A DNA stretch of 64,000 bases from NCBI GenBank assembly GCA_017510405.1, contig JAFWNG010000031.1, positions 1-64,000 of the forward strand. The letters run 5' to 3'. Each line of letters opens with the position of its first letter. Position 1 is the first letter of the stretch. The translations under genes and the position numbers were made by a program. Below, one piece after another: positions 2,265-21,295 of the stretch. The stretch is from Solobacterium sp. GTDB taxonomy: Bacteria; Bacillota_I; Bacilli_A; Erysipelotrichales; Erysipelotrichaceae. The notes under the pieces were generated by a model that saw only the letters and a list, made by a program, of their open reading frames with translations, ran no database searches and was not told where the DNA came from.

Positions 2265-2293
2265 GCCCATTTTTGAAGAAGGAGGATGCACGA

Positions 2294-4384
2294 ATGAAAC
2301 TTGTTATTGCTGAGAAGCCCAGTGTAGCCCAGTCCCTAGCCAGGGTGATCGGTGCAGACAAACGCCAGGACGGCTACCTGGAAGGCGGCGGCTATCTGGT
2401 CAGCTGGTGTGTCGGCCATCTGGTTGAGCTTTCCGCGCCGGAGCGGTATGACGAACGCTTTGCCAAATGGCGGATTGAAGACCTGCCGATCCTGCCGGAG
2501 CGCTGGCTGTATGAGGTCTCCCAGGCCACCAGGAAGCAGTATCAGATCCTGAAGTCTCTGATGGAACGCTCCGATGTGGAGAGCCTTGTCTGTGCCACTG
2601 ATGCCGGGCGTGAAGGCGAACTGATCTTTCGTCTGGTCTACAACCAGGCCCGATGTAAGAAAACTTTTGAACGGCTGTGGATCTCCAGCATGGAGGACTC
2701 AGCCATCCGGGAAGGCTTTGAGAAGCTAAAACCGGGAACACAATATGACCTTCTGTATGAGGCTGCCCTTTGCCGGGAGCGTGCCGACTGGATTGTCGGA
2801 ATGAACGTTACCCGGCTTTTTTCATGTCTGTACGGCCAGACTCTGGCTGTTGGCAGGGTGATGACGCCGACGCTGGCCATGGTTGTCATGCGGGACGCCC
2901 AGATCGCAGCCTTCAAGCCGGAGCCTTTTTGGACTGTCCAGCTGAAAGCCGGAGATCTAAACGTGTCCAGCCGACGTTTTTCGACAAAAAACGACGCCGA
3001 AGTAGTCCTTCAGGAGTGCCAGACTGCCGGAGAAGTCATGATTGAAGCTGTTGAGACGAAGGAAAAGCTGGAGAAGCCGCCTCTTCTGTATGACCTGACG
3101 AGCCTGCAGAGAGACGCCAACCGCATCCTCGGCTTTACGGCTCAGCAGACACTGGATCACACCCAGAGCCTTTACGAAAAGAAGTTGGTCACTTATCCCC
3201 GCACCGACAGCCGGTATCTTACCGATGATATGCGGGAGATGCTGCCGGAGCTGATCAATGCAGTTGCACGCAAATGCAAATACAGCGGCAGTGCACTTCG
3301 CAGTGAACCGGTACGCCTTGCAAGCATTTTCAACAGCAGCAAGGTCAGCGACCATCATGCCATTATCCCGACAAAGACGATGACCGGGAGTGATTTCAGT
3401 GAGCTTTCCTTGGGAGAAATGGCAGTTCTGCAATTGATTTCCGCAAGGCTTCTCTGTGCGGCGGCAGGGGATTACCGATATGCAGAATCAACCGTAAAGT
3501 CACGCTGTGGAGCTGAAGAATTCACCAAGAAAGGCAGGACAGACCTGCAGCTTGGCTGGAAAGCCATCTGGCAGCATTTCTATCCGGATAAGAAGAAGGA
3601 TGAGGATTTCATTGGCCAGATCCCGGGCCAGGGAAAACGACTTCAAATCGATTCTTCGGCGCTGAAAGAGGGCAAGACCTCCCCGAGCAAGCATTTTACT
3701 GAAGACACCCTTCTCTCAGCTATGGAGACTGCCGGTGCCGATGAGACGCCGGATGAAGCAGAACGAAAAGGTCTCGGCACTCCAGCCACCCGTGCCGCCA
3801 CCATTGAGAAGTTGGTGCAGCGCGGCTTTATCGAGCGTAAAGGCGACAGGAAGACCAGACACCTGATCGCCACGGACAAAGGCAACGCCCTGATCACCGT
3901 CATGCCGGAGCAGATCCAGTCACCTTCCATGACTGCCGAATGGGAGCAGAAGCTCCTTGCCATCGAGCGCGGCGAATACGATGCTGCGGACTTCATGGAC
4001 GGGATCTCCGGGATGATCGCAGGGCTTGTGACAACCTATGAAAAAGCGAAAGGAGCAGATGCGCTTATGAGCAGAAACAAAGTGATCGGCACCTGTCCCC
4101 ACTGTGGGTCCGAGGTGCTGGAAAAACAGAAGGGCTGGTTCTGCAGCAACAGTGAATGCCGGTTCATTCTCTGGAAGGACAATGCCTATTTCACGAAGAT
4201 CGGCAAACGCCTGACCTCTCAGATCGTGGAGAAGCTGCTGAAGGATGGCCGCGCCAGGCTGAAGGACTGCAAGAGCCAGAAGACCGGCAAGACCTATAAC
4301 GCGGATATCCTGCTTTCCACGGAGGCGGACGGCAGGCCGCAGTTCTCCATGGAATTCGATAAACGCAAAGGAGGCGGTAAGTGA
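2294..4384 (+). CDS. topB: DNA topoisomerase III
   Basis: 696 residues, a type IA topoisomerase. The Toprim domain starts at the N-terminus (MKLVIAEKPSVAQSLARV, Glu7) and includes ATDAGREGELIF. The active-site tyrosine is in VTYPRTDSRYL in domain III. A C-terminal zinc-ribbon (CPHCG...CSNSECRF) and a short extra tail follow. Start chosen at 2294, preceded by AAGGAGG. TopB of this kind is a standard component of Clostridial conjugative elements, where it resolves DNA during transfer or element replication. The stop overlaps the next start (TGATG), so it heads a translationally coupled operon running to mobC. Confidence 0.96.
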   Translation: MKLVIAEKPSVAQSLARVIGADKRQDGYLEGGGYLVSWCVGHLVELSAPERYDERFAKWRIEDLPILPERWLYEVSQATRKQYQILKSLMERSDVESLVCATDAGREGELIFRLVYNQARCKKTFERLWISSMEDSAIREGFEKLKPGTQYDLLYEAALCRERADWIVGMNVTRLFSCLYGQTLAVGRVMTPTLAMVVMRDAQIAAFKPEPFWTVQLKAGDLNVSSRRFSTKNDAEVVLQECQTAGEVMIEAVETKEKLEKPPLLYDLTSLQRDANRILGFTAQQTLDHTQSLYEKKLVTYPRTDSRYLTDDMREMLPELINAVARKCKYSGSALRSEPVRLASIFNSSKVSDHHAIIPTKTMTGSDFSELSLGEMAVLQLISARLLCAAAGDYRYAESTVKSRCGAEEFTKKGRTDLQLGWKAIWQHFYPDKKKDEDFIGQIPGQGKRLQIDSSALKEGKTSPSKHFTEDTLLSAMETAGADETPDEAERKGLGTPATRAATIEKLVQRGFIERKGDRKTRHLIATDKGNALITVMPEQIQSPSMTAEWEQKLLAIERGEYDAADFMDGISGMIAGLVTTYEKAKGADALMSRNKVIGTCPHCGSEVLEKQKGWFCSNSECRFILWKDNAYFTKIGKRLTSQIVEKLLKDGRARLKDCKSQKTGKTYNADILLSTEADGRPQFSMEFDKRKGGGK

Positions 4385-4956
4385 TGGACGAGAAAGAACA
4401 CAGCATCCGCTTCATTAACAGCAGTTATGATACGCTTTTCCGGATCCCGGACGGCGGCACCGTGGAAGTTCAGTTCCCTGACCGGAAGTTCTCCGCAAAG
4501 TGCGAGTATATCGATGATTATCACACGCTCGTCGGTGACTCTGTGTTCCACATCTGCGAATTTGCCGAAATGGTGGAGCATCAGCATGGTTCGGTCCGCC
4601 CTGAACCGGAGACTGAATTGGACCAGGCAGCCTGGCAGCTCGGTCACAGAGAATACCTTGCTCTGCAGACTACGGATTCCGGGTACGATTATTCGATTTA
4701 CAGCCAGCAGTTCAAACTGATGGATGGAGGTCAGCTCGATAACCCTGAGCTCAGTATGAATCAGGCACGGGATCAGATCATGGAGATGCATGGGTATGGA
4801 CGCAGGAACCGACGCGCTGTTCCTTATGAGCACGTTATGGAACAGGCTGAGCTTGTAAGCGGCTCTGTTCTGAAACAGCTGGACGATCTGAAAAGCAATT
4901 CCTCACAGGAGAAGAAACCCGGAAAGGAGGTTCGCCATGCCGGAAAAGAAAGATAA
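4384..4956 (+). CDS. LPD28/DUF4316-like element accessory protein
   Basis: 190 residues. The first ~75 (INSSYDTLFRIPDGG ... CEYIDDYHTLVGDSVFHICEFAE) resemble LPD28-type domains of large polyvalent proteins in mobile elements. A second block (about 85-140, GYDYSIYSQQFKLMDGGQLDN) resembles the DUF4316 type. The tail is charged and lysine-rich. The ATG at 4384 overlaps the topB stop; a GTG three bases upstream is also possible. Function unknown; the domains occur with ArdC, topB and relaxase genes in ICEs, matching this context. Confidence 0.7.
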   Translation: MDEKEHSIRFINSSYDTLFRIPDGGTVEVQFPDRKFSAKCEYIDDYHTLVGDSVFHICEFAEMVEHQHGSVRPEPETELDQAAWQLGHREYLALQTTDSGYDYSIYSQQFKLMDGGQLDNPELSMNQARDQIMEMHGYGRRNRRAVPYEHVMEQAELVSGSVLKQLDDLKSNSSQEKKPGKEVRHAGKER

Positions 4957-6289
4957 AGCCTATCCCTCCCAGTTCGATAAGGTCAAGGAGATCACAGACA
5001 AGCTGGAAGCCGGCATTCAGGCGCTCTTCGAGAGTGAAGCATTCAAGAAGTATCTGAAGACACTCTCCAAGTTCCATGACTACTCCCTGAACAATACGAT
5101 CCTGATCGCCATGCAGAAGCCGGATGCCACCTTGGTTGCCGGATACACTGCCTGGCAGAAGAACTTCGGCAGGCAGGTACAGAAGGGCGAGACCGGGATC
5201 CGGATCCTTGCTCCGACGCCTTATAAGAAACAGATGGAAGTGGACCGGCTTGATCCTGTCACGCAACAGCCGGTCCTGAATCCGGACGGCAGCACGGCAA
5301 AGGATTTAAAGGAGATCATGGTCCCAGCCTTCAAGGTCGTGAGCGTCTTTGATGTCAGCCAGACGGACGGAAAGCCCCTACCCACCATCGGCGTAGATGA
5401 GCTCTCCGGTAATGTCACAAATTACGAGATGTTCTTCGAAGCCCTGAAACGGGCCTGCCCGGTTCCTGTCGGCTTTGAGGATATCCCTTCCGGGGCCAAG
5501 GGCTACTACCACACGGTTGATCAACGGATCGCCCTGCAGGAAGGTATGAGCCAGGTCCAGACGGTCAAGACAATGATTCACGAGATGGCCCACCAGAAGC
5601 TGCATGCCATCGATCCGAAGGACCTGCCTCCGGAGGAACCGAGGCTCACCCGAAACGCCAAGGAGGTCGAGGCGGAGGCTGTCGCTTACACCGTCGCCCA
5701 GCATTACGGCATCGAGACAAGCGATTACAGCTTTGCCTATATCGCCGGATGGTCTCACGGAAAGGAAACACCGGAGCTGAAGGCTTCCCTTGACAGGATC
5801 CGCAAGGCTGCCGATGAGATGATCACGAGCATCGATGACCACATCATGTATCTTCAGCAGGAAAAAGGAATTGACGTGAAACCGGAGATTTCGCCGAATC
5901 CTGCTCCCGGTCTTCAGGAGAACGGCAGGTACCGTTATTATTCCACCCAGCGTCCGGTCGATATTGGCACTTTCCCGAAACCTGCCGGTAATGCTCCTGT
6001 GGAGATCCACAACTATGATAATCGGCAGCTTGTTGAGGGTGGCACGATGCAGGCCTGGGGTTGGCTGGAATACGTTAAGCCTCTGACTGAAAAGGAAGCC
6101 GGTGATTACGAATTGAAACCAGCCCCGTCTGCGGAGAAAGCTAAGATCGCCCCGGAACAGTCAGAGTCCTCTTCCGAGAAGAAGCATTCCGTCCTGCAGG
6201 ATCTGCAGACGAAGGCTGAAAAGGCCAAACAGAAATCCACACAAAAAAGCACACCGAAACCGCACAAAAAGAAGGAGGAAACACGATGA
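4937..6289 (+). CDS. ArdC-type antirestriction protein with zincin metallopeptidase domain
   Basis: 450 residues. The N-terminus (1-~95) is an ArdC-like ssDNA-binding domain (FHDYSLNNTILIAMQKP, AWQKNFGRQVQKGE). A zincin domain follows with HEMAH at 215-219 and a downstream acidic helix (VEAEAVAYTVAQHYG) supplying the third zinc ligand. The region around 320-390 (RYRYYSTQRPVDIGTFP) resembles the YodL/LPD16 type. The tail is Lys-rich. It overlaps the previous gene by 20 bases behind AAAGGAGG. ArdC proteins protect incoming single-stranded conjugative DNA; this role is by family, not shown here. Confidence 0.85.
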   Translation: MPEKKDKAYPSQFDKVKEITDKLEAGIQALFESEAFKKYLKTLSKFHDYSLNNTILIAMQKPDATLVAGYTAWQKNFGRQVQKGETGIRILAPTPYKKQMEVDRLDPVTQQPVLNPDGSTAKDLKEIMVPAFKVVSVFDVSQTDGKPLPTIGVDELSGNVTNYEMFFEALKRACPVPVGFEDIPSGAKGYYHTVDQRIALQEGMSQVQTVKTMIHEMAHQKLHAIDPKDLPPEEPRLTRNAKEVEAEAVAYTVAQHYGIETSDYSFAYIAGWSHGKETPELKASLDRIRKAADEMITSIDDHIMYLQQEKGIDVKPEISPNPAPGLQENGRYRYYSTQRPVDIGTFPKPAGNAPVEIHNYDNRQLVEGGTMQAWGWLEYVKPLTEKEAGDYELKPAPSAEKAKIAPEQSESSSEKKHSVLQDLQTKAEKAKQKSTQKSTPKPHKKKEETR

Positions 6290-6501
6290 TCTTTACCGTA
6301 GAGGAAACCACGCTGGTTGCGGCATTCGATCATTCCAGCCGCGGCGCAGCTGTCATGGATATGATGGCCGGGCTCGGCATGATCGAGGACAAAGAGCTCA
6401 GGGAGCAAGTCCGCCGTCTCAAGGACAAACTGAAAACGATGAATGACGAGGAGTTCATGAAAGTGGATTTCTCGGTGTATGAGGAGGATGAAAATGAGTA
6501 A
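6286..6501 (+). CDS. Transposon-transfer assisting (TTRAP-like) small protein
   Basis: 71 residues beginning MIFTVEETTLVAAFDHSSRGAAV, which fits the small 'transposon-transfer assisting' family found in conjugative transposons. Acidic C-terminus (YEEDENE). It overlaps the ArdC-like stop by four bases (ATGA) and is overlapped by the next gene, so it is translationally coupled. Biochemical role unknown. Confidence 0.72.
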   Translation: MIFTVEETTLVAAFDHSSRGAAVMDMMAGLGMIEDKELREQVRRLKDKLKTMNDEEFMKVDFSVYEEDENE

Positions 6502-7027
6502 ATGGGACGAGGCTCACACTGAGCCGTTGCATGATCATCCGGCTGAGAAAGATCAGCTGGTTGCTGCTATGGAAGCTGCAGGCTATACGCTGGATACGCT
6601 GGAAAGCACCGGGGACAATCTGCGCTTCTATGGTGTTGCCGGGAACATCGTAACGATGGGCGGCTGGCATGAATGCGAGGAGTGGCTGAACGGAGTGGTG
6701 TTTGATGATCCGCAGGTTTCCGACCGTGTGGAGATCATCCTGCATCCGGAACGCTTTCCGGAGCGAGATCCGCAGAGGGCTGCCCTTCGCGCTGTGGAGG
6801 ATGCCGTGGAACAGAACGACAATAATTTTGACGGGATTATCAACAACCTGCCTGAGCCGGATCCCGCCGAGGCGCTCAGACAACAGGCCAGACAGTCCGA
6901 ACAGGCAGCCGCCAGAGATTCTGTCCTGGAAGAACTCAAATCCCAGAGAGAAAAAGCCGAGCTGGCAGAAAAGTCAAAGCGCAGGCCGCACATCTTTCGG
7001 AATCCAGAAGAAAGGGAGCGTGTATGA
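6494..7027 (+). CDS. Element accessory protein with LPD-like N-terminus and coiled-coil tail
   Basis: 177 residues from the ATG at 6494, which has GAGGAGG seven bases upstream; a frame start at 6479 is less likely because that AGGAGG would be inside it. The N-terminal ~90 residues (ENLRF-like core GDNLRFYGVAGNIVTMGGWHECEEWLNG) look like a compact domain of the LPD class. The C-terminal half is a charged helix, probably coiled coil (about 115-165). It overlaps both neighbours by a few bases. Function unknown; transfer-region accessory by context. Confidence 0.62.
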   Translation: MSKWDEAHTEPLHDHPAEKDQLVAAMEAAGYTLDTLESTGDNLRFYGVAGNIVTMGGWHECEEWLNGVVFDDPQVSDRVEIILHPERFPERDPQRAALRAVEDAVEQNDNNFDGIINNLPEPDPAEALRQQARQSEQAAARDSVLEELKSQREKAELAEKSKRRPHIFRNPEERERV

Positions 7028-7356
7028 GGACCAAAACGAGAAGTCTGGAGGTCCTGTTCTCCCCGGAAGAATACAAGCTGCTCTGCCAGCGTTCGGAAGA
7101 AGCAGGCGTCCGCTTTCTCGGACCGTTCATCCGCAAAATGTCTCTGGACGGTTATATCGTCAAGCTGGATACTTCCGATATTCACGAGATGACTTCGCTT
7201 CTCAGACGCTGCAGCAACAACCTAAACCAGATTGCGAAAAAGGCAAATGCCACAGGAAGCATTTACGGCGCGGATATTGCTGAGCTTCAGGCGAAGCAGG
7301 ATGAAATTTGGGAAATGGCAAAAGAGATCCTGGCGAGACTTTCATCCATTCAGTAA
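7024..7356 (+). CDS. mobC: MobC-like relaxosome accessory protein
   Basis: 110 residues. The N-terminal RHH-like stretch (RTKTRSLEVLFSPEEYKLLCQRSEEAG) and the conserved MobC motif (LLRRCSNNLNQIAKKANATG, about 58-77) identify a bacterial mobilisation protein that helps a relaxase open oriT. Overlaps the upstream gene by four bases. It precedes the relaxase by 73 bases that contain a strong hairpin. Confidence 0.87.
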   Translation: MRTKTRSLEVLFSPEEYKLLCQRSEEAGVRFLGPFIRKMSLDGYIVKLDTSDIHEMTSLLRRCSNNLNQIAKKANATGSIYGADIAELQAKQDEIWEMAKEILARLSSIQ

Positions 7357-7362
7357 ACGACA

Positions 7363-7410
7363 CCGGGGACCGTATCGGATTTCTGTCCGGTACGGTCCTC
7401 GGCATTTTTC
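7363..7410 (+). terminator. Hairpin terminator or attenuator between mobC and the relaxase gene
   Basis: A 12-bp stem (7363-7374 with 7391-7402, one G-U pair) extends into an inner CGGA/TCCG pairing and is followed by CATTTTTCATTTT. It sits between the MobC stop and the relaxase ribosome site (AGGAGG at 7418). This would limit relaxase transcription relative to the transfer operon. Confidence 0.7.
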
Positions 7411-7429
7411 ATTTTCAGGAGGAACACAA

Positions 7430-8518
7430 ATGGCAGCAACACGACTGATTGCTCTTCATCAGAGGAAGGGACAATCGATGGCCCACAGCCTCAGTGAGCG
7501 AACGGATTATGCAAAGAATCCAGAGAAAACGGAGAAAGGCGAGCTTATTACCGCCTATGGCTGTGATCCGATGACTGCAGATGAAGAGTTCATGCTTCAG
7601 AAGAGGCAGTATTACCACATCACAGGCAAAGAGCCCCGGCACGATATCATCGCGTATCAGATCCGGCAATCCTTCAAACCCGGAGAGATCACGGCGGAGG
7701 AAGCTAACCGGATCGGCTACGAGCTGGGTCTGCGCTTCACGAAGGGGAACTACTCCTTCATTGTGGCGACGCACACCGACCGGGCTCACATTCACAACCA
7801 TATCATTTTCAATTCCACAAGCATGGACGGAACCAGAAAATTCAAAAACTTCTGGCTGTCAGGCCGGGCGCTTCAGAGAGTCAGCGATATGATCTGCCTG
7901 GAAAATGGCCTCTCCGTGATTAAGCCCCTTCCGTATTCGGACAGGCCCAGACGGACCACTTACCCGCAGCGTGAAAGCTTCCGCGACATGATCTGCCGTG
8001 ATATCGATACGATTCTCGGAAAGAAGCCGAAGGACTTTCTCGATTTTCTGCAAATGCTGGAATCAGTAGGATATGAAATCAAGCAGGGAAAGAACATCGC
8101 ACTTCGGGGAAAAGACCAGAAGCGTTTTATCCGCCTCTCTTCTCTCGGAGACGGGTATGCGGAGGAAGATCTTCGTGCGGTCATCATCGGCACCCGAAAT
8201 CATAGGCCGAAAAGTAAATATTTGCGTAGCGAGCAATCTGTCAATCTGCTTCTTAATGTACAGGAAAAGCTTCAGGAAAAAGGAGCCGGGTATGCCCATT
8301 GGACGAAGGTTTATAATCTGAAGCAGATCTCAAAAAGTATGCTTTTGTTCCACGAACGCGGCGCGGAAACGCTGAAAGAGATCAATGCTCTTGTCGATAA
8401 AACAGTAAAAAGGCGGGATGAGTTGCAGGCCCAGATTGCAGAATCCGAGAAACGTCTGGCAGAGATCGCCACGCTGAAAAAGCATATCATCAATTATTCC
8501 AAAACCAGAACCACATAG
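7430..8518 (+). CDS. MobA/VirD2-family relaxase, C-terminally truncated
   Basis: 362 residues from the ATG at 7430 (AGGAGG upstream). The relaxase domain shows the histidine triad THTDRAHIHNHI (His115-His124) that binds the metal, and an N-terminal lysine/tyrosine region (SLSERTDYAKN) where the catalytic tyrosine lies. The family nicks oriT and leads conjugative DNA transfer. The C-terminal helix is cut at ...HIINYSKTRTT; homologues I recall continue for about 100 residues past this point. The downstream DNA switches to an hsdS remnant, so the gene appears broken at its 3' end. The nicking domain is intact and may still work. Confidence 0.88.
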   Translation: MAATRLIALHQRKGQSMAHSLSERTDYAKNPEKTEKGELITAYGCDPMTADEEFMLQKRQYYHITGKEPRHDIIAYQIRQSFKPGEITAEEANRIGYELGLRFTKGNYSFIVATHTDRAHIHNHIIFNSTSMDGTRKFKNFWLSGRALQRVSDMICLENGLSVIKPLPYSDRPRRTTYPQRESFRDMICRDIDTILGKKPKDFLDFLQMLESVGYEIKQGKNIALRGKDQKRFIRLSSLGDGYAEEDLRAVIIGTRNHRPKSKYLRSEQSVNLLLNVQEKLQEKGAGYAHWTKVYNLKQISKSMLLFHERGAETLKEINALVDKTVKRRDELQAQIAESEKRLAEIATLKKHIINYSKTRTT

Positions 8519-13092: not shown

Positions 13093-13130
13093 GAGGTCTC
13101 GGAGATGAACTCCGAGGCCTCAATTCTTTT
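13093..13130 (+). terminator. Rho-independent terminator after the AraC-GyrI gene
   Basis: A 12-bp stem (13093-13104 with 13110-13121, one G-U pair), a five-base loop ATGAA, then AATTCTTTT. Confidence 0.85.
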
Positions 13131-13155: not shown

Positions 13156-13189
13156 TGCCTGTCCGGAGCAAAAACTGCCTCCGATCCTA

Positions 13190-15160: not shown

Positions 15161-16444
15161 TTATGGCTTTAGGGATGTGATCGGGATAATAAACACCCCG
15201 GTCTCAGGATCTCTCATGACAGTATCCAGATGGCCAACGATTACACACATAAATGCCGGCTTCTTTTCAACATTGTTCTGAAATTTGGTCAAACTGCTGA
15301 TAGCATCCTGGATGCTGCCATCGCTTAGTTTGATCTCAAAAGCAGCATATTCCCCGTCCTTAAATTCCACTATTGCGTCTACTTCATCTCCGGAGGCGTT
15401 GTCCCGGAAATGATAAAGATGTCCCTCCAGATAGTCGGCGTATATGCGAAGATCCCTCTCCACCAGTGCTTCAAACATAAGTCCAAAAGTTTCATGGTCA
15501 TTCAACAGCTTTGGGACAGTCAGATGGAGACATGCGCAGCTTAGGGAGGGGTCTGCCAGATGCCTTTTTGCGGATTTTCCGATTCGTGATGAGGAACGAT
15601 AGTGTACGCTGAAGGCTTCCTGATTCGTAATCAGAAATAAGCTGTCAAGAACACTGGTATAGTCCGCAACGGTATCCCGGCTTTCTATCAATTCATTACC
15701 GTTTTCATACTCTTCAATATCCCTGACCAGGGTCTTGTCTCCGGCAACAGAAGACTCATGCCGTGCAAGGGCTCGAAGAAGCATACGCATCTTTTCCGGG
15801 CTTCTTTTTCTTATCTGGCGTTCATGCATATCCTTTGTAACAATAGCTTCGATATAGCTTTCGGGAATGACGCCGATATCTTCCTCAGCCATATCAATGT
15901 TCTCTGGCCAGCCGCCTCTGATGATCAGCCTGGCCAGATCATCAAGTTCAACTTTTCGCACAAAGCCTTCCTGAATCTGTCCCTGGCGCATTCCAGTTAA
16001 CGAAGCCTCTCCTGATGAGTCACCGGATTCATACAGACTCATGGGATACATGCGCAGTGGTGCTATCCGTCCGGTTCCGGTATGATATACCTTTTTTTCT
16101 CCACGTTTCTTCTTAAGCGAAGTTGACCCGGTCAGGATAAACTTCCCTTTCTCACGATCGCTGTCACATTCGTTTCTTACAGCATCCCAGATCTCGGGAA
16201 CGATCTGCCATTCGTCAATTAACTGAGGCCTTTCTTTTGTGAATATATATTTCGGATCAACGAGAGCATTGTTTCGGACACTTTTGTCTGTTACATAGGA
16301 AACGCTGTTTGCATGGTTAAGACTGGTCCAGGTTTTTCCGCACCATTTTGGCCCTTCTATAGAGACTGCACCGAAAATCCTCAAATAGCGTGAGATTCGT
16401 TCGTCTATCAGCCGTGGCTTGTATCCATCCTTCGTTAAGCTCAT
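15161..16444 (-). CDS. AAA-type ATPase with DUF4143 domain
   Basis: 427 residues from the ATG at 16444 behind GGAGGTG. An N-terminal P-loop-like segment (IEGPKWCGKTWTS; Walker A variant GPKWCGKT, ~30-37) and Walker B-like PQLIDEWQ are followed by ILTGSTS. The C-terminal DUF4143/PDDEXK-like part (~200-427) carries DEVDAIVEF...AAFEIKLSDG. These single-gene ATPases are widespread in Bacillota and Bacteroidota mobile DNA; function poorly known. It is monocistronic, opposite to the element's other genes, from its own promoter. Confidence 0.85.
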   Translation of the reverse strand: MSLTKDGYKPRLIDERISRYLRIFGAVSIEGPKWCGKTWTSLNHANSVSYVTDKSVRNNALVDPKYIFTKERPQLIDEWQIVPEIWDAVRNECDSDREKGKFILTGSTSLKKKRGEKKVYHTGTGRIAPLRMYPMSLYESGDSSGEASLTGMRQGQIQEGFVRKVELDDLARLIIRGGWPENIDMAEEDIGVIPESYIEAIVTKDMHERQIRKRSPEKMRMLLRALARHESSVAGDKTLVRDIEEYENGNELIESRDTVADYTSVLDSLFLITNQEAFSVHYRSSSRIGKSAKRHLADPSLSCACLHLTVPKLLNDHETFGLMFEALVERDLRIYADYLEGHLYHFRDNASGDEVDAIVEFKDGEYAAFEIKLSDGSIQDAISSLTKFQNNVEKKPAFMCVIVGHLDTVMRDPETGVFIIPITSLKP

Positions 16445-16466
16445 GCTTTTCACCTCCAGTGCAGTT

Positions 16467-16518
16467 ATTGTATCACAGCATTGTGCACTTTTCAAGAAGA
16501 ACGTTACGCACTTTTCAA
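16467..16518 (-). promoter_or_regulatory. Promoter of the DUF4143 ATPase with a duplicated 11-mer
   Basis: On the minus strand TTGAAA (16495-16490), a 17-base spacer and TACAAT (16472-16467) form the promoter. The 11-mer TTGAAAAGTGC that contains the -35 box is repeated exactly 23 bases upstream (16508-16518), about two helical turns away, suggesting an operator pair. Confidence 0.6.
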
Positions 16519-16615
16519 TTATTTTATTCCGCACAATTCAGAGATTGTACTCGGCATTTTTCAAACTGTGTAAAAAATGGCCCTACGAGGGCTACTGAGT
16601 GGCCCTGCCAGGCCC

Positions 16616-16633
16616 ACGGCAAACGCCGTTTTC
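16616..16633 (+). terminator. Small hairpin with T-run in the long intergenic region
   Basis: ACGGC (16616-16620), AAAC loop, GCCGT (16625-16629), then TTTTC. It lies upstream of the structured stretch. No gene ends before it on the plus strand, so it may be part of a leader or a remnant. Confidence 0.35.
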
Positions 16634-16689
16634 TCCTCTAAAATATGACTCGTAACAACCGAGTTGTTACAGAAGAAAGAAAACAAAGC

Positions 16690-17060
16690 ACCTTGACAAC
16701 CGAATACACATTCATCAGGTACGAACCTGTGATGAGGAGCCACATCAGCAGTGAACGCGAGGACGATCGAAAGATCAGAGCGGCAGCTGGCCTGTAAGAG
16801 CCGGACAGCTTCCGGATTAAGGCGAAGATCCATCACAGTATAATGAGACTTCCGTCGCAAGACGGCTCGGTGAGAACCACGGAGGGGTAAAACGGCCCAT
16901 GGACCCGGTAAGCTGCCGGACGCCTGATAGATTTCCCAGACAAGCAAAGGGCTTGTGTTTCCGGGGGTGTCGAGGACAAATACGGAAAGATCATAAACGA
17001 AATAATCGTCCGATACGGACGTTTTAGTGGAGCAGGCCGGGTGCCTGCTTCGTACATATT
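16690..17060 (+). ncRNA. Candidate large structured non-coding RNA
   Basis: About 370 bases without a convincing gene on either strand, dense in hairpins, several closed by GNRA-type loops. These include AGGT-acga-ACCT in a TCATC/GATGA stem (16713-16735), GATC-GAAA-GATC (16765-16776), GCTGGC with GC...CAGC (near 16786-16809), CCGTC-GCAA-GACGG (16852-16865), GGT-GAGA-ACC (16869-16878), ACAAGC/GCTTGT (16939-16956), CGTCCG-ATA-CGGACG (17008-17022) and AGCAGGC/GCCTGCT (17031-17049). It lies just upstream of the ParB-like gene. It could be an ornate RNA of the kind known from mobile elements (for example ROOL or GOLLD classes), an oriT/ori region, or a long 5' leader. Ends are approximate; class not established. 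Confidence 0.45.
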
Positions 17061-17081
17061 CAAGACAAGGAGGAAAGCAGA

Positions 17082-17867
17082 ATGTCTGAAGATATTACCA
17101 GACCGTTTGAAGAGAAAATGGTCAGCAGCGCTCTTCTGGAGATTCCTCGCAATACATACCAGAGGGGCTTAAATCCTGAGAGAGTAAAAAGGATCTCTCA
17201 TTCCTTTGACGAGCGGATCGCTAATGAACCCAAGGTCAGCCTTCGTGATGGCCACTATATCGTGTTCGACGGACAGCATGTGGTTGCTGCCAGAGTGGAC
17301 AAGAACAGCGGCGAGGAGCTTCCAATCCGTTGCAAGATCTACTCAGATCTCACAGAGCAGGAAGAAGCAAAGCTGTTTGCGAACCAGACTGGCTTTGGCG
17401 TACCGCCCAGCATTGGCATGAAGCTGAGAGCCCTGGTATTCGCCGGAGATCCGGAAGCGGTGAGCTTCCTGAAGGCAAACGAAAAGATCGGTCTTCGAAT
17501 TGATTACGGTCAGCACAAAGGAAGAAAACGAGTGGCTTGCATTGCTGCTGCGCTTACAGAGTACCGAAAGCTGGGACCGGAGAAATACCAGGAAGCCATG
17601 AAAATGATCCTGGATGGCTGGGACGGCGATCCGGATTCTCTGAGAGCAGAGACCGTGATCGGTATCTGCCGATTCGTTGATCTCTACAATGGTGAGTTTG
17701 ATCCGAAACGAGCCGTAAAGCGGTTTCGTACCGTGGATCCCCTGAAGATCTATCGTGACGGGAGGGCCATGGGAGACAACTTCCCTGGCTATAAGAAGTA
17801 TCTCTACCAGGTGGTGCTGATTTACAACGGGGCCAGCAAAAAGGCTGCTCTCCCGGTGAAGTTCTGA
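17082..17867 (+). CDS. ParB-like (DUF6551-type) element protein
   Basis: 261 residues. The N-terminal half has a ParB/sulfiredoxin-type fold (Y-Q-R-G at ~24-28; YIVFDGQHVVAARV at ~60-75 as the DGQH motif; LTEQEEAKLFANQTG). The C-terminal half is helical. Start behind AAGGAGGAAAG. Such proteins occur in Clostridial ICEs and phages; a role in partition, replication or regulation is possible. It leads a probable operon with the MazF-type toxin 14 bases downstream. Confidence 0.75.
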   Translation: MSEDITRPFEEKMVSSALLEIPRNTYQRGLNPERVKRISHSFDERIANEPKVSLRDGHYIVFDGQHVVAARVDKNSGEELPIRCKIYSDLTEQEEAKLFANQTGFGVPPSIGMKLRALVFAGDPEAVSFLKANEKIGLRIDYGQHKGRKRVACIAAALTEYRKLGPEKYQEAMKMILDGWDGDPDSLRAETVIGICRFVDLYNGEFDPKRAVKRFRTVDPLKIYRDGRAMGDNFPGYKKYLYQVVLIYNGASKKAALPVKF

Positions 17868-18304: not shown

Positions 18305-18386
18305 TTCTTTTCCTTTTCTTTCCTTTCTGAAGGGGGATGCTGAAGAAGTATCCCCTGGATACATAAACACGGAGGTGATAATCAAT

Positions 18387-18626
18387 ATGGAAAAACTGCT
18401 TACGAGGAAGGAGGCAGCGAGACTGCTTGGCATCAGCATCGCTACACTGGATGCTGCCAGAGCAAACGGACAAGTCTCCTTCGTCCAGTATTGTGAGAAC
18501 GGTAGCGTGTATTTTACGGAGCTGAGTCTTCAGGAGTATGTCGCTCGGTCTACCCACAGAGCAAAACCGAGGGAGATCAATACCGGAACTACATTCAGGA
18601 ATCCGAGAAACGGTGTTCGAAGGTGA
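18387..18626 (+). CDS. xis: Excisionase / MerR-type HTH protein
   Basis: 79 residues from the ATG at 18387 behind GGAGGTGAT. The single winged-helix HTH (LLTRKEAARLLGISIATLDAARANGQVSFVQY, ~4-36) is that of small excisionases; the basic tail ends RNPRNGVRR. It directly precedes two tyrosine recombinase genes, the usual xis-int order, and probably directs excision. Confidence 0.8.
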   Translation: MEKLLTRKEAARLLGISIATLDAARANGQVSFVQYCENGSVYFTELSLQEYVARSTHRAKPREINTGTTFRNPRNGVRR

Positions 18627-18694: not shown

Positions 18695-19918
18695 ATGCCA
18701 AGAAAAAGGATTCCGAATTTTAACTTTAACTCCGTGACGATCAATGGGCACCAATACTACAAGGCCTATGTCATGAATGCTGATCATAAGCTGATCATCG
18801 TCTACGGAAAGACCATAGAAGAACTTTGCCAGAAGTATGATGAGGCCGAGCATCGCACTGAAAGCGATTTATTCAACAGACGGTCTCCAACAGTAAAGGA
18901 GTACTGTGAAAAATGGCTGCTGATGCAGTCTGCAAATGTTCGGGCAACGACCCTGATCGATTACACATCTAAAGTGAACCGGCACATCATCGCTCCGTTG
19001 GGCAACATGCGGATGGCTGAGGTCACAGCGGATGATATCAAGATGGCGCTGATTCCGGTCTCAAAGAAATCAGCATCGGTTTATAAGTCCGTCAATATCA
19101 TTCTGAAATGCATCTTCAATTCCGCGGAGGACAGTAAGATCATTACCTATAACCCGACGAGATTTCTTTCTTCCAAAGGAGGCGGAATTTCACAGAAGGA
19201 GCGGGAATCACTGACAGATGAACAGGCAGAGTTGCTGCTGAATACGATTCGAGATCTGCCGCCATATGTTTTTGTGATGCTCGGTCTGTACGCCGGACTT
19301 CGCAGAGAAGAGATTCTGGCTCTCAAGTGGGACTGCGTAGTGTTGGACACAGATGCTCCTTATGTAATGGTCCGGAGAGCCTGGCACACGGAAAGTAATC
19401 GACCTGTTATTATGACGGAGCTGAAAACGAAGGCAGCAAAGAGGGATATTGCCATTCCGGAGTGTCTAGCCGAATGCCTCAGAGAAGCAAAAAAAGCATC
19501 AACTTCAGAGTATGTGGTTGCGAACAATGCGGGAGAGCCGCTCTCATACACGCAGTTCAAACAGTTGTGGCGTTATATCATAGTAAGGACAGCAAAACCA
19601 CGCCCTGCAAAGAAAAAAGTGGGTGGGAAGTATGTGAAATACATGCTGTACCCTCAACTTGGAGAAATGGCCAAGAACAATGGGAAGGTCCAGTATGTCC
19701 TGGACTTCGAAGTGACACCTCATCAGCTGCGCCACACCTATATCACCAACCTGATCGCTGCCGGAGTAGATCCGAAGACAGTCCAGTATTTGGCCGGTCA
19801 TGAGAGCAGCAAGATCACTATGGACATATATGCAAAAGTGAAATACAACCGGCCAGAAGAAGTGGTCAAAGCACTCGATGGAGCCTTTGCAATTTGGAAT
19901 GGGCAGACCGGGTTCTGA
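18695..19918 (+). CDS. int: Tyrosine recombinase / integrase 1
   Basis: 407 residues. An N-terminal arm-binding domain (~1-60) and SAM-like core-binding domain (~65-165) precede the catalytic domain (~185-400). Active residues visible: Arg in YAGLRREEIL, HQLRHTY (His-x-x-Arg), GHESSKITMDIY (His and nucleophile Tyr). Start behind AGGAGGT. It is paralogous to integrase 2 downstream over its whole length. It lies 68 bases after xis and is followed by a terminator. Confidence 0.94.
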   Translation: MPRKRIPNFNFNSVTINGHQYYKAYVMNADHKLIIVYGKTIEELCQKYDEAEHRTESDLFNRRSPTVKEYCEKWLLMQSANVRATTLIDYTSKVNRHIIAPLGNMRMAEVTADDIKMALIPVSKKSASVYKSVNIILKCIFNSAEDSKIITYNPTRFLSSKGGGISQKERESLTDEQAELLLNTIRDLPPYVFVMLGLYAGLRREEILALKWDCVVLDTDAPYVMVRRAWHTESNRPVIMTELKTKAAKRDIAIPECLAECLREAKKASTSEYVVANNAGEPLSYTQFKQLWRYIIVRTAKPRPAKKKVGGKYVKYMLYPQLGEMAKNNGKVQYVLDFEVTPHQLRHTYITNLIAAGVDPKTVQYLAGHESSKITMDIYAKVKYNRPEEVVKALDGAFAIWNGQTGF

Positions 19919-20053: not shown

Positions 20054-21295
20054 ATGGCAAAAAAAGAAGCGCAGCCCAGGATCCCGAACTGGTCTATCTA
20101 TGTAAAGAAAGGGATTCCGTATTTCAGGATCCAGACTTATGATGCTGATGGAAAAAGATTTGACATCTACGGAAGGTCCGAGGAGGAAGTAAAGCAGAAG
20201 TATCTTCAGGCGCAACAGGAAGTCGAGGCTGCGAAGTTCAGGAAACTCAATCCTACGGTCAAAGAATACAGTGAGAAATGGCTGGAAATGCATTCTGCAC
20301 TTATTCAGCCCAGCACCTTAAAGGGCTATACCCTGGCAGTCAAAAACTACATAGTCAAACCGCTTGGTGATATGTATATGTCCGATGTGACAGCAGATGA
20401 TATCAAGCTGGCTATGGTGGCTGTTTCCAAAAGATCAAGCGCCACGTACAACCTGGTCAACATGCTTTTCAAGAGCATCTTCTACTCTGCGCAGTACAGC
20501 AATCTGATCGGGGACAATCCGACCGCTAAGATTAATGCGAAAGGCGGAGTGCCCAAGAAAGAAAAAGAGGCTCTTACAGACGCGCAGGCAAAGCTCCTTC
20601 TGGATACGATCCGGGATCTGCCGCCTTATGTGTTTGTAATGATCGGGCTGTACTCCGGACTGCGAAGAGAGGAAATTCTCGGACTGCAATGGGATTGCGT
20701 TTTTCTGGACGTTGATACTCCTTATATTGCCGTCCGCAGAGCCTGGCACTCCGAACACAATCGTCCGGTCATTACCAGAGAACTGAAGACCCCTGCAGCC
20801 AAGAGAGATGTACCTATCCCGCAGCCGCTGGTCGATTGCCTGCGTGCAGAGAAAGAAAAATCCACTTCTGACTATGTCATTGCGGATAAAAACGGAGAGC
20901 CTCTGTCATACTCTCAGTTCAGCCGGATCTGGAACTATATCAGAGTCCGGGGAACCCAAGAACGGACGCTGTACAAATACGTGAATGGGCAGGCAATCCA
21001 AAAGAAGTTCAAGCCTGAGCCCGGTCAGAAATGCGTGAACCGGGAAAACATCGTCTACTGTCTGGATTTCAAGGTAACTCCCCATCAGTTGCGTCACACC
21101 TATATTACCAACCTGATCCATGCTGGCGTCGATCCAAAGACAGTCCAGTATCTGGCCGGTCATGAGAACAGCAAGGTGACTATGGACATTTATGCAAAGG
21201 CAAAGTATAATAGGCCTGCAGAGCTTTCCGCTGTCGTAAACAGCGCATTGAATACGTCAAACGAGAGCGATGAGAGCGAAGCGTCTTCAAAATGA
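20054..21295 (+). CDS. int: Tyrosine recombinase / integrase 2
   Basis: 413 residues with the same domain plan as integrase 1. Active residues: YSGLRREEILGL (Arg), HQLRHTY, GHENSKVTMDIY (His, Tyr). A C-terminal acidic/serine tail (SNESDESEASSK) is added and an insert lies before the HxxR box. Start behind GAAGGAGG. It lies closest to the attachment site, so it is probably the enzyme that acts there. Confidence 0.94.
   Translation: MAKKEAQPRIPNWSIYVKKGIPYFRIQTYDADGKRFDIYGRSEEEVKQKYLQAQQEVEAAKFRKLNPTVKEYSEKWLEMHSALIQPSTLKGYTLAVKNYIVKPLGDMYMSDVTADDIKLAMVAVSKRSSATYNLVNMLFKSIFYSAQYSNLIGDNPTAKINAKGGVPKKEKEALTDAQAKLLLDTIRDLPPYVFVMIGLYSGLRREEILGLQWDCVFLDVDTPYIAVRRAWHSEHNRPVITRELKTPAAKRDVPIPQPLVDCLRAEKEKSTSDYVIADKNGEPLSYSQFSRIWNYIRVRGTQERTLYKYVNGQAIQKKFKPEPGQKCVNRENIVYCLDFKVTPHQLRHTYITNLIHAGVDPKTVQYLAGHENSKVTMDIYAKAKYNRPAELSAVVNSALNTSNESDESEASSK

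Follow-up and report, generated by a model that had tools for sequence, protein, structure and literature searches.

A full-length homologue of the Tn916 antiterminator canT ahead of recombination genes in Solobacterium

Ahead of a block of toxin, excisionase-like and integrase genes in Solobacterium sp. lies a stretch crowded with short hairpins. What is this stretch, and what does it do for the genes that follow? Working on the window (the whole 64,000-nucleotide stretch of DNA analysed here), the initial annotation had placed a candidate large structured RNA at positions 16690-17060 and had offered three possible roles: an ornate RNA of mobile elements, an origin of transfer or replication, or a long regulatory leader.

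Extent and fold of the RNA

No credible gene was found on either strand of the 16690-17060 region. The ATPase gene on its 5' side lies on the opposite strand, with a start at about 16452-16534, and the first gene on its 3' side starts at 17082. Folded alone, 16640-17081 reached −136.1 kcal/mol compared to −117.2 ± 5.1 for dinucleotide shuffles (z = −3.7), and none of 100 shuffles was as good. With Rfam 15 at the gathering threshold, RF02913 ('pemK RNA') matched the forward strand at 16840-16902 (56.8 bits, E 1.4e-7). This score exceeds the family cut-off of 34.8, so the window RNA meets RF02913 membership. Across the window, Rfam 15 returned only RF02913 and two tRNAs, without any ROOL, GOLLD, raiA or OLE match, and the role as an ornate RNA of the ROOL, GOLLD or raiA type is thus not supported. 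The perfect short hairpins that had been claimed are present (GATC-GAAA-GATC, CCGTC-GCAA-GACGG, ACAAGC-AAAGG-GCTTGT, CGTCCG-ATA-CGGACG and GCAGGC-CGGGT-GCCTGC); the mention of several GNRA-type loops was generous, as we counted two (GAAA and GCAA).

To define the unit, we gathered pemK-RNA loci in whole genomes belonging to the same family and class, together with DUF6551 relatives taken from genome contigs. The flanks of these relatives share recurring landmarks, namely a boxA-like TGTTCTTTGAAAACTGAATA at the 5' end, helix P1, which encloses the structure, the long-range helix P2, which stops just 5' of the Rfam core's first base, and hairpins P5-P9. The conserved RNA accordingly spans 16687-16939 on the forward strand, with a tail that reaches the start codon of the first gene (to 17081), which refines the bounds first proposed. 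It is a unit of ~250 nt, compared to the 61 nt modelled in Rfam, and consists of the boxA-like 5' element, P1, P2, the Rfam core and hairpins.

Evidence for this structure comes from numerous compensatory changes. When 32 divergent relatives (41% mean identity) were aligned by sequence alone with MAFFT (A2), 79% of cells paired versus 60% in shuffles, and double-changed cells numbered 356 versus 137. The A2 covariation score of 0.411 fell to 0.085-0.134 when partners were slid by 1-3 columns. Double changes occurred at 8 of 9 P1 pairs and at all 8 P2 pairs, although both helices lie outside the Rfam model. A covariance model of 275 positions (R1) showed 1237 double changes versus 381 in its own alignment, with the caveat that this alignment is fitted to the structure. 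The absence of compensatory changes would have refuted the structured RNA; the check was run on relatives and the finding survived. Together with the fold energy and the RF02913 match, it upholds the proposal of a gene-free structured RNA.

Run against 88 sources, R1 found 86 matches, almost all of them full length, and matched the whole window unit (16687-16939, model positions 1-275) with 165.3 bits. In a phylum-wide R1 search, only full-length, high-scoring matches were counted; many matches of 24-34 bits and ~40-60 nt in small genomes were treated as false. The same genome holds two further copies, on contigs C18 and C24. The former precedes another pemK gene, while the latter (C24:69997-70247, locus L115) precedes a large serine recombinase and is found by R1, having escaped Rfam's short model. 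No DNA-level relatives of the window RNA were found in plasmids and phages.

From 5' to 3' on the forward strand, the unit (16687-16939, delimited by R1 and by the independent model R2 described below) opens with the boxA-like element AGCACCTTGACAACCGAATA at 16687-16706, for which the family consensus is TGTTCTTTGAAAACTGAATA, the sequence also seen in the host rRNA leader and spacer. P1 pairs 16713-16720 with GCCTGATAG at 16922-16930, and P2 pairs CTGTGATG at 16727-16734 with CATCACAG at 16831-16838. The GAAA-loop hairpin at 16765-16776, seen in the sequence, takes the place of family helix P4, which is variable within the family and has weak covariation support. Hairpin P5 (GCCGGA...TCCGGAT) lies at 16800-16818. 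The RF02913 core, which begins AUAAUGA(U/G)AC, follows at 16840-16902 with helix P6 (the GCAA-loop hairpin, 16852-16865), hairpin P7 (16867-16883) and helix P8 (GGG...CCC, 16885-16898); hairpin P9 (CCGGT-AAGCT-GCCGG) is at 16905-16919. P1 and P5-P9 are supported by covariation and mapping, P2 by covariation. Beyond P1, a 3' extension of unknown role, TTTCCC-(ACAAGC..GCTTGT hairpin)-CCGGGGGTGTCGAGGACAAAT (16932-16981), is common to many PemK-group RNAs. A scan detected a terminator-like hairpin, CGTCCG-ATA-CGGACG followed by TTTT, between the RNA and the first gene (17007-17025); its stem is kept in relatives and it is a possible target of antitermination.

Two features lie just 5' of the RNA. 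A terminator-like hairpin from a consensus scan (ACGGC-AAAC-GCCGT followed by TTTCT, 16616-16629, forward strand) is partly kept in DUF6551 relatives and might serve as an insulator, a function that is only inferred. A perfect 8-bp inverted repeat, GTAACAAC-CGA-GTTGTTAC (16652-16670, no strand assigned), is also kept in relatives; its role is unknown, and an operator is one possibility. In the related locus L040, likeness to the window stops near this repeat, as if modules had recombined there.

Relation to canT of Tn916

canT of Tn916, characterised by Wirachman & Grossman (2024, PMC11658703), is an antiterminator that acts in cis, depends on orientation and is processive. It is required for transfer gene expression after excision, and it functions with foreign promoters and terminators, acting on T1, T2, T3, gatB, rrnB and lambda t0 without other Tn916 genes, in one orientation only and as transcribed RNA (PMC11658703). 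The inactivating mutation canT(S3) changes ATA to TGC 283 nt after orf8 (PMC11658703). In the Tn916 copy of pCF10 (L141), we mapped S3 to L141:5164-5166, where it alters bases 1-3 of the RF02913 core AUAAUGAUAC, which is among the most conserved stretches of the RNA family. The window carries the same AUA motif, ATAATGAGAC at 16840. A 400-bp canT fragment is still active despite the S3 change (PMC11658703), so the structure-function map of canT is unsettled.

To avoid circularity, we built a second covariance model (R2) from 18 relatives. Its training set excluded the window, the DUF6551 relatives close to it (89-95%), every Tn916-like sequence and the boxA; a single distant DUF6551 locus, L041 (37% protein identity), was retained. 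R2 nevertheless matched Tn916 (pCF10) over all 246 positions with 111.6 bits (E 1e-26), between orf8 and xis, which is the canT locus. All 246 positions were likewise matched in the tndX element (129.9 bits) and in the window (94.3 bits, E 3e-22, 16711-16931). The window RNA is therefore a full-length homologue of Tn916 canT. Since R2 matches Tn916, the tndX element and the window at full length, we read the stretch as the leader RNA of a recombination operon and, very likely, as a canT-type processive antiterminator. Activity has been shown for Tn916 only and is inferred for the present element.

The two RNAs share the AUAAUGAUAC core and a place before xis-int of an integrative element, but the window RNA has a shorter P6 arm, without the GAGCG insert, and the 3' TTTCCC...GACAAAT extension. 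Its operon, unlike that of Tn916, opens with DUF6551 followed by a solo PemK toxin and has UACAU sites. HK022 put, B. subtilis EAR and pLS20 conAn2 (named in PMC11658703) are likewise cis-acting, processive RNAs, but no sequence or structural relation between them and the window RNA is proposed here.

The genomic setting agrees with this reading. Like canT, the window RNA lies upstream of xis-int on the same strand, and the Tn916 and tndX records concur. Locus L024 matches the Tn916-type element on E. faecalis pCF10 with 100% identity, in the interval from orf8 to xis; its identity to the tndX element on an E. faecium plasmid is 87%. Among the 86 loci with sufficient sequence, 69 have a recombinase encoded downstream (36 serine, 33 tyrosine) and 2 have one upstream; RNA and downstream recombinase share a strand in all but one relative. 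Only 30 of the 86 have pemK in the operon, and the pemK-less two thirds lead directly into xis-int or a serine recombinase. The RNA thus belongs to recombination modules and not to pemK as such. Of the three roles first offered, the long regulatory leader fits, given the full-length homology to canT.

In Tn916, a hypothetical protein (WP_001845478.1) is annotated antisense across the RNA (L141:5107-5358, reverse strand) and looks spurious. It apparently corresponds to orf5, which is likewise doubted in PMC11658703.

The boxA element and the PemK toxin

In four genomes, TCYTTGAMAAYTGAA occurred at 25 sites: 11 belong to rRNA leaders or to spacers between 16S and 23S genes, 13 mark 5' ends of the RNA family and one lies elsewhere. 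TCYTTGAMA is carried by 62 of 82 RNAs of the family. The boxA pattern had no match in the window's own assembly, rRNA included, and the count was drawn from other genomes for this reason; the window copy is a degenerate variant, GCACCTTGACAACCG. The 5' element of the family has the same sequence as the rRNA boxA bound up with NusB-NusE/S10, but here a large structured RNA follows and Nus dependence is inferred only. Because the family starts with the host's rRNA antitermination signal, recruitment of NusB-S10 is suggested, without binding data. Full boxA may be dispensable, since the active 452-bp canT fragment begins inside it and lacks UGUUCU (its first 6 nt).

Within 16932-16981, the tail sequence GGGGTGTCGAGGACAAAT can pair with boxA CCTTGACA in the window and in many PemK-type relatives. 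By eye, most PemK-type RNA tails could form 5-8 pairs with boxA. A permutation test of this pairing was not significant; the tails had been extracted automatically and were partly misregistered. A boxA/anti-boxA switch through the 3' tail remains no more than a possibility.

The operon begins with a DUF6551 gene (PF20188, 17082-17867), so that the label 'ParB-like' given to it earlier was not confirmed. It continues with a solo PemK/MazF toxin gene (PF02452, 17882-18304), an excisionase-like HTH protein (HTH_17, below cut-off, 18387-18626) and a tyrosine integrase (18695-19918), all on the forward strand. The nearest solved relatives of the window PemK are the MazF proteins of B. subtilis and S. 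aureus, whose cut site is U^ACAU (PMC5408214). No known antitoxin was seen beside it, the gene that precedes it being DUF6551, of unknown role.

A TACAT (UACAU in the RNA) lies at 17053-17057, between the RNA and the ribosome-binding site, with the hairpin GCAGGC-CGGGT-GCCTGC (17032-17048, also present in relatives) immediately 5' of it. In 22 of 27 pemK operons (19 of 21 non-redundant), compared to 2.4 expected from letter shuffles, TACAT falls within the 70 nt that precede the first gene, and it usually sits directly 3' of a hairpin. It is the commonest 5-mer upstream of pemK operons, ahead of the Shine-Dalgarno. At pemK-less loci, 12 of 60 had TACAT in the 160 nt after the RNA versus 12.1 expected. 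L041 was counted by the 70 nt before pemK itself and not before the first gene; there, UACAU is immediately 5' of pemK, 2.5 kb from the RNA, which indicates that the site goes with the toxin gene and not with the RNA. Among mazF-like genes without the RNA, TACAT was found in 0 of 20, an imperfect control because these genes are mostly packed behind another gene. A second TACAT (18360-18364), after a hairpin at 18333-18355, lies just 5' of xis in the window; UACAU before xis is not general and was seen only in the DUF6551 pair. We infer that PemK may cut its own leader, and thereby the tether between antiterminator RNA and polymerase.

Proposed mechanism and rival explanations

In the mechanism that we propose, RNA polymerase would transcribe the ~250-nt RNA, which would fold into the structure enclosed by P1 and P2 and remain on the elongating polymerase. 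Intrinsic terminators, including the candidate at 17007-17025, would then be ignored and DUF6551-pemK-xis-int would be expressed in a single run. After excision and circle formation, readthrough could extend past the att junction into whatever follows, an idea that leans on Tn916 because the ends of the window element are not fixed. Host NusB/S10 (NusE) may be recruited through the 5' boxA, and PemK, by cutting at the UACAU that separates RNA and gene, would detach the antiterminator from polymerase and silence the operon; both steps are inferred. A bolder reading, which we regard as merely possible, is a toxin-gated switch in which the RNA would exploit the boxA machinery of host rRNA for antitermination of its own operon, while PemK would cut the nascent transcript at a dedicated UACAU. 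If it were true, the toxin would restrain mobility by feedback, with no protein antitoxin involved.

Could the RNA instead be a cis-regulatory leader of the toxin gene, such as an attenuator that binds or senses the toxin? In Rfam, RF02913 is classed as Cis-reg and bears the name pemK, and about a third of relatives (30/86) carry pemK, with UACAU before the operon. However, two thirds lack pemK, Tn916 has no pemK and yet has the RNA, which antiterminates, and the UACAU of L041 stands directly before pemK, far from the RNA (2.5 kb); we consider this explanation very unlikely. Equally improbable is a ligand- or translation-controlled attenuator that would switch the 17007-17025 terminator for its own operon only and non-processively. 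It could draw on the terminator-like hairpin between the RNA and the first gene and on a switch that boxA and the 3' tail (UCRRGG) might form by pairing. Against it, no alternative pairing with the terminator was noticed, albeit without a systematic search, the boxA-tail pairing was not significant (with tails partly misregistered), and canT acts on T1, T2, T3, gatB, rrnB and lambda t0 without other Tn916 genes (PMC11658703).

An origin of transfer or replication, in which the structure would act as single-stranded DNA, is all but ruled out. Abundant inverted repeats and the location in a mobile element near recombination genes would suit it, but the compensatory pairs tolerate G-U, the orientation relative to the downstream operon is fixed in all but one relative, and canT works one way only, as transcribed RNA, with the Tn916 oriT located elsewhere, near orf21/orf20 (PMC11658703). 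Nor is the earlier suggestion of such an origin supported by the position of the RNA before recombinase genes in 69 of 86 loci. The canT-type antiterminator remains the preferred reading.

The pemK RNA was reportedly introduced by Weinberg et al. 2017. The text of Wirachman & Grossman mentions neither boxA, NusB, Rfam nor pemK and states that structure was not pursued (PMC11658703); later canT literature, as searched, does not link canT to the pemK RNA. Relative to the literature searched, the identity of canT with Rfam's pemK RNA and its covariation-supported structure are new, as are the rRNA-type boxA at the 5' end, whose action is inferred, and the conserved UACAU before the operon only where a solo PemK/MazF is encoded, where the toxin step is inferred. 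Through this identity an orphan Rfam RNA gains a function, and canT gains an evolution-backed structure that its discoverers had not pursued. By analogy, antitermination may extend beyond Tn916-like elements to dozens of Bacillota elements that carry serine or tyrosine recombinases. The boxA names a candidate host factor site, and solo MazF toxins of mobile elements become linked to a cut site that is conserved within their leaders.

Several observations concern the surrounding element. Within 13108 to about 21300, DNA similarity to a related element, L032, starts at 13108, a point that may mark the element's left end. A search for att sites yielded only an 11-base repeat, GCCTGTCCGGA, at 13157 and 21582, a weak candidate. 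The gene at 15161-16534 (reverse strand) encodes an AAA_14/DUF4143 ATPase that matches the PADLOC candidate defence family PDC-S01; it is absent from L032, where 15068 joins almost directly to 16569, and therefore looks like inserted cargo. A second tyrosine integrase (20054-21295, forward strand) lies in tandem with the similar one at 18695-19918; in related loci, the second resembles part of the first at the level of DNA. Further left, 2273-8518 encodes topoisomerase III, an ImmA/ArdC-like protein and a MobP-type relaxase, which suggests that the contig carries another element, of the conjugation type, at its left end.
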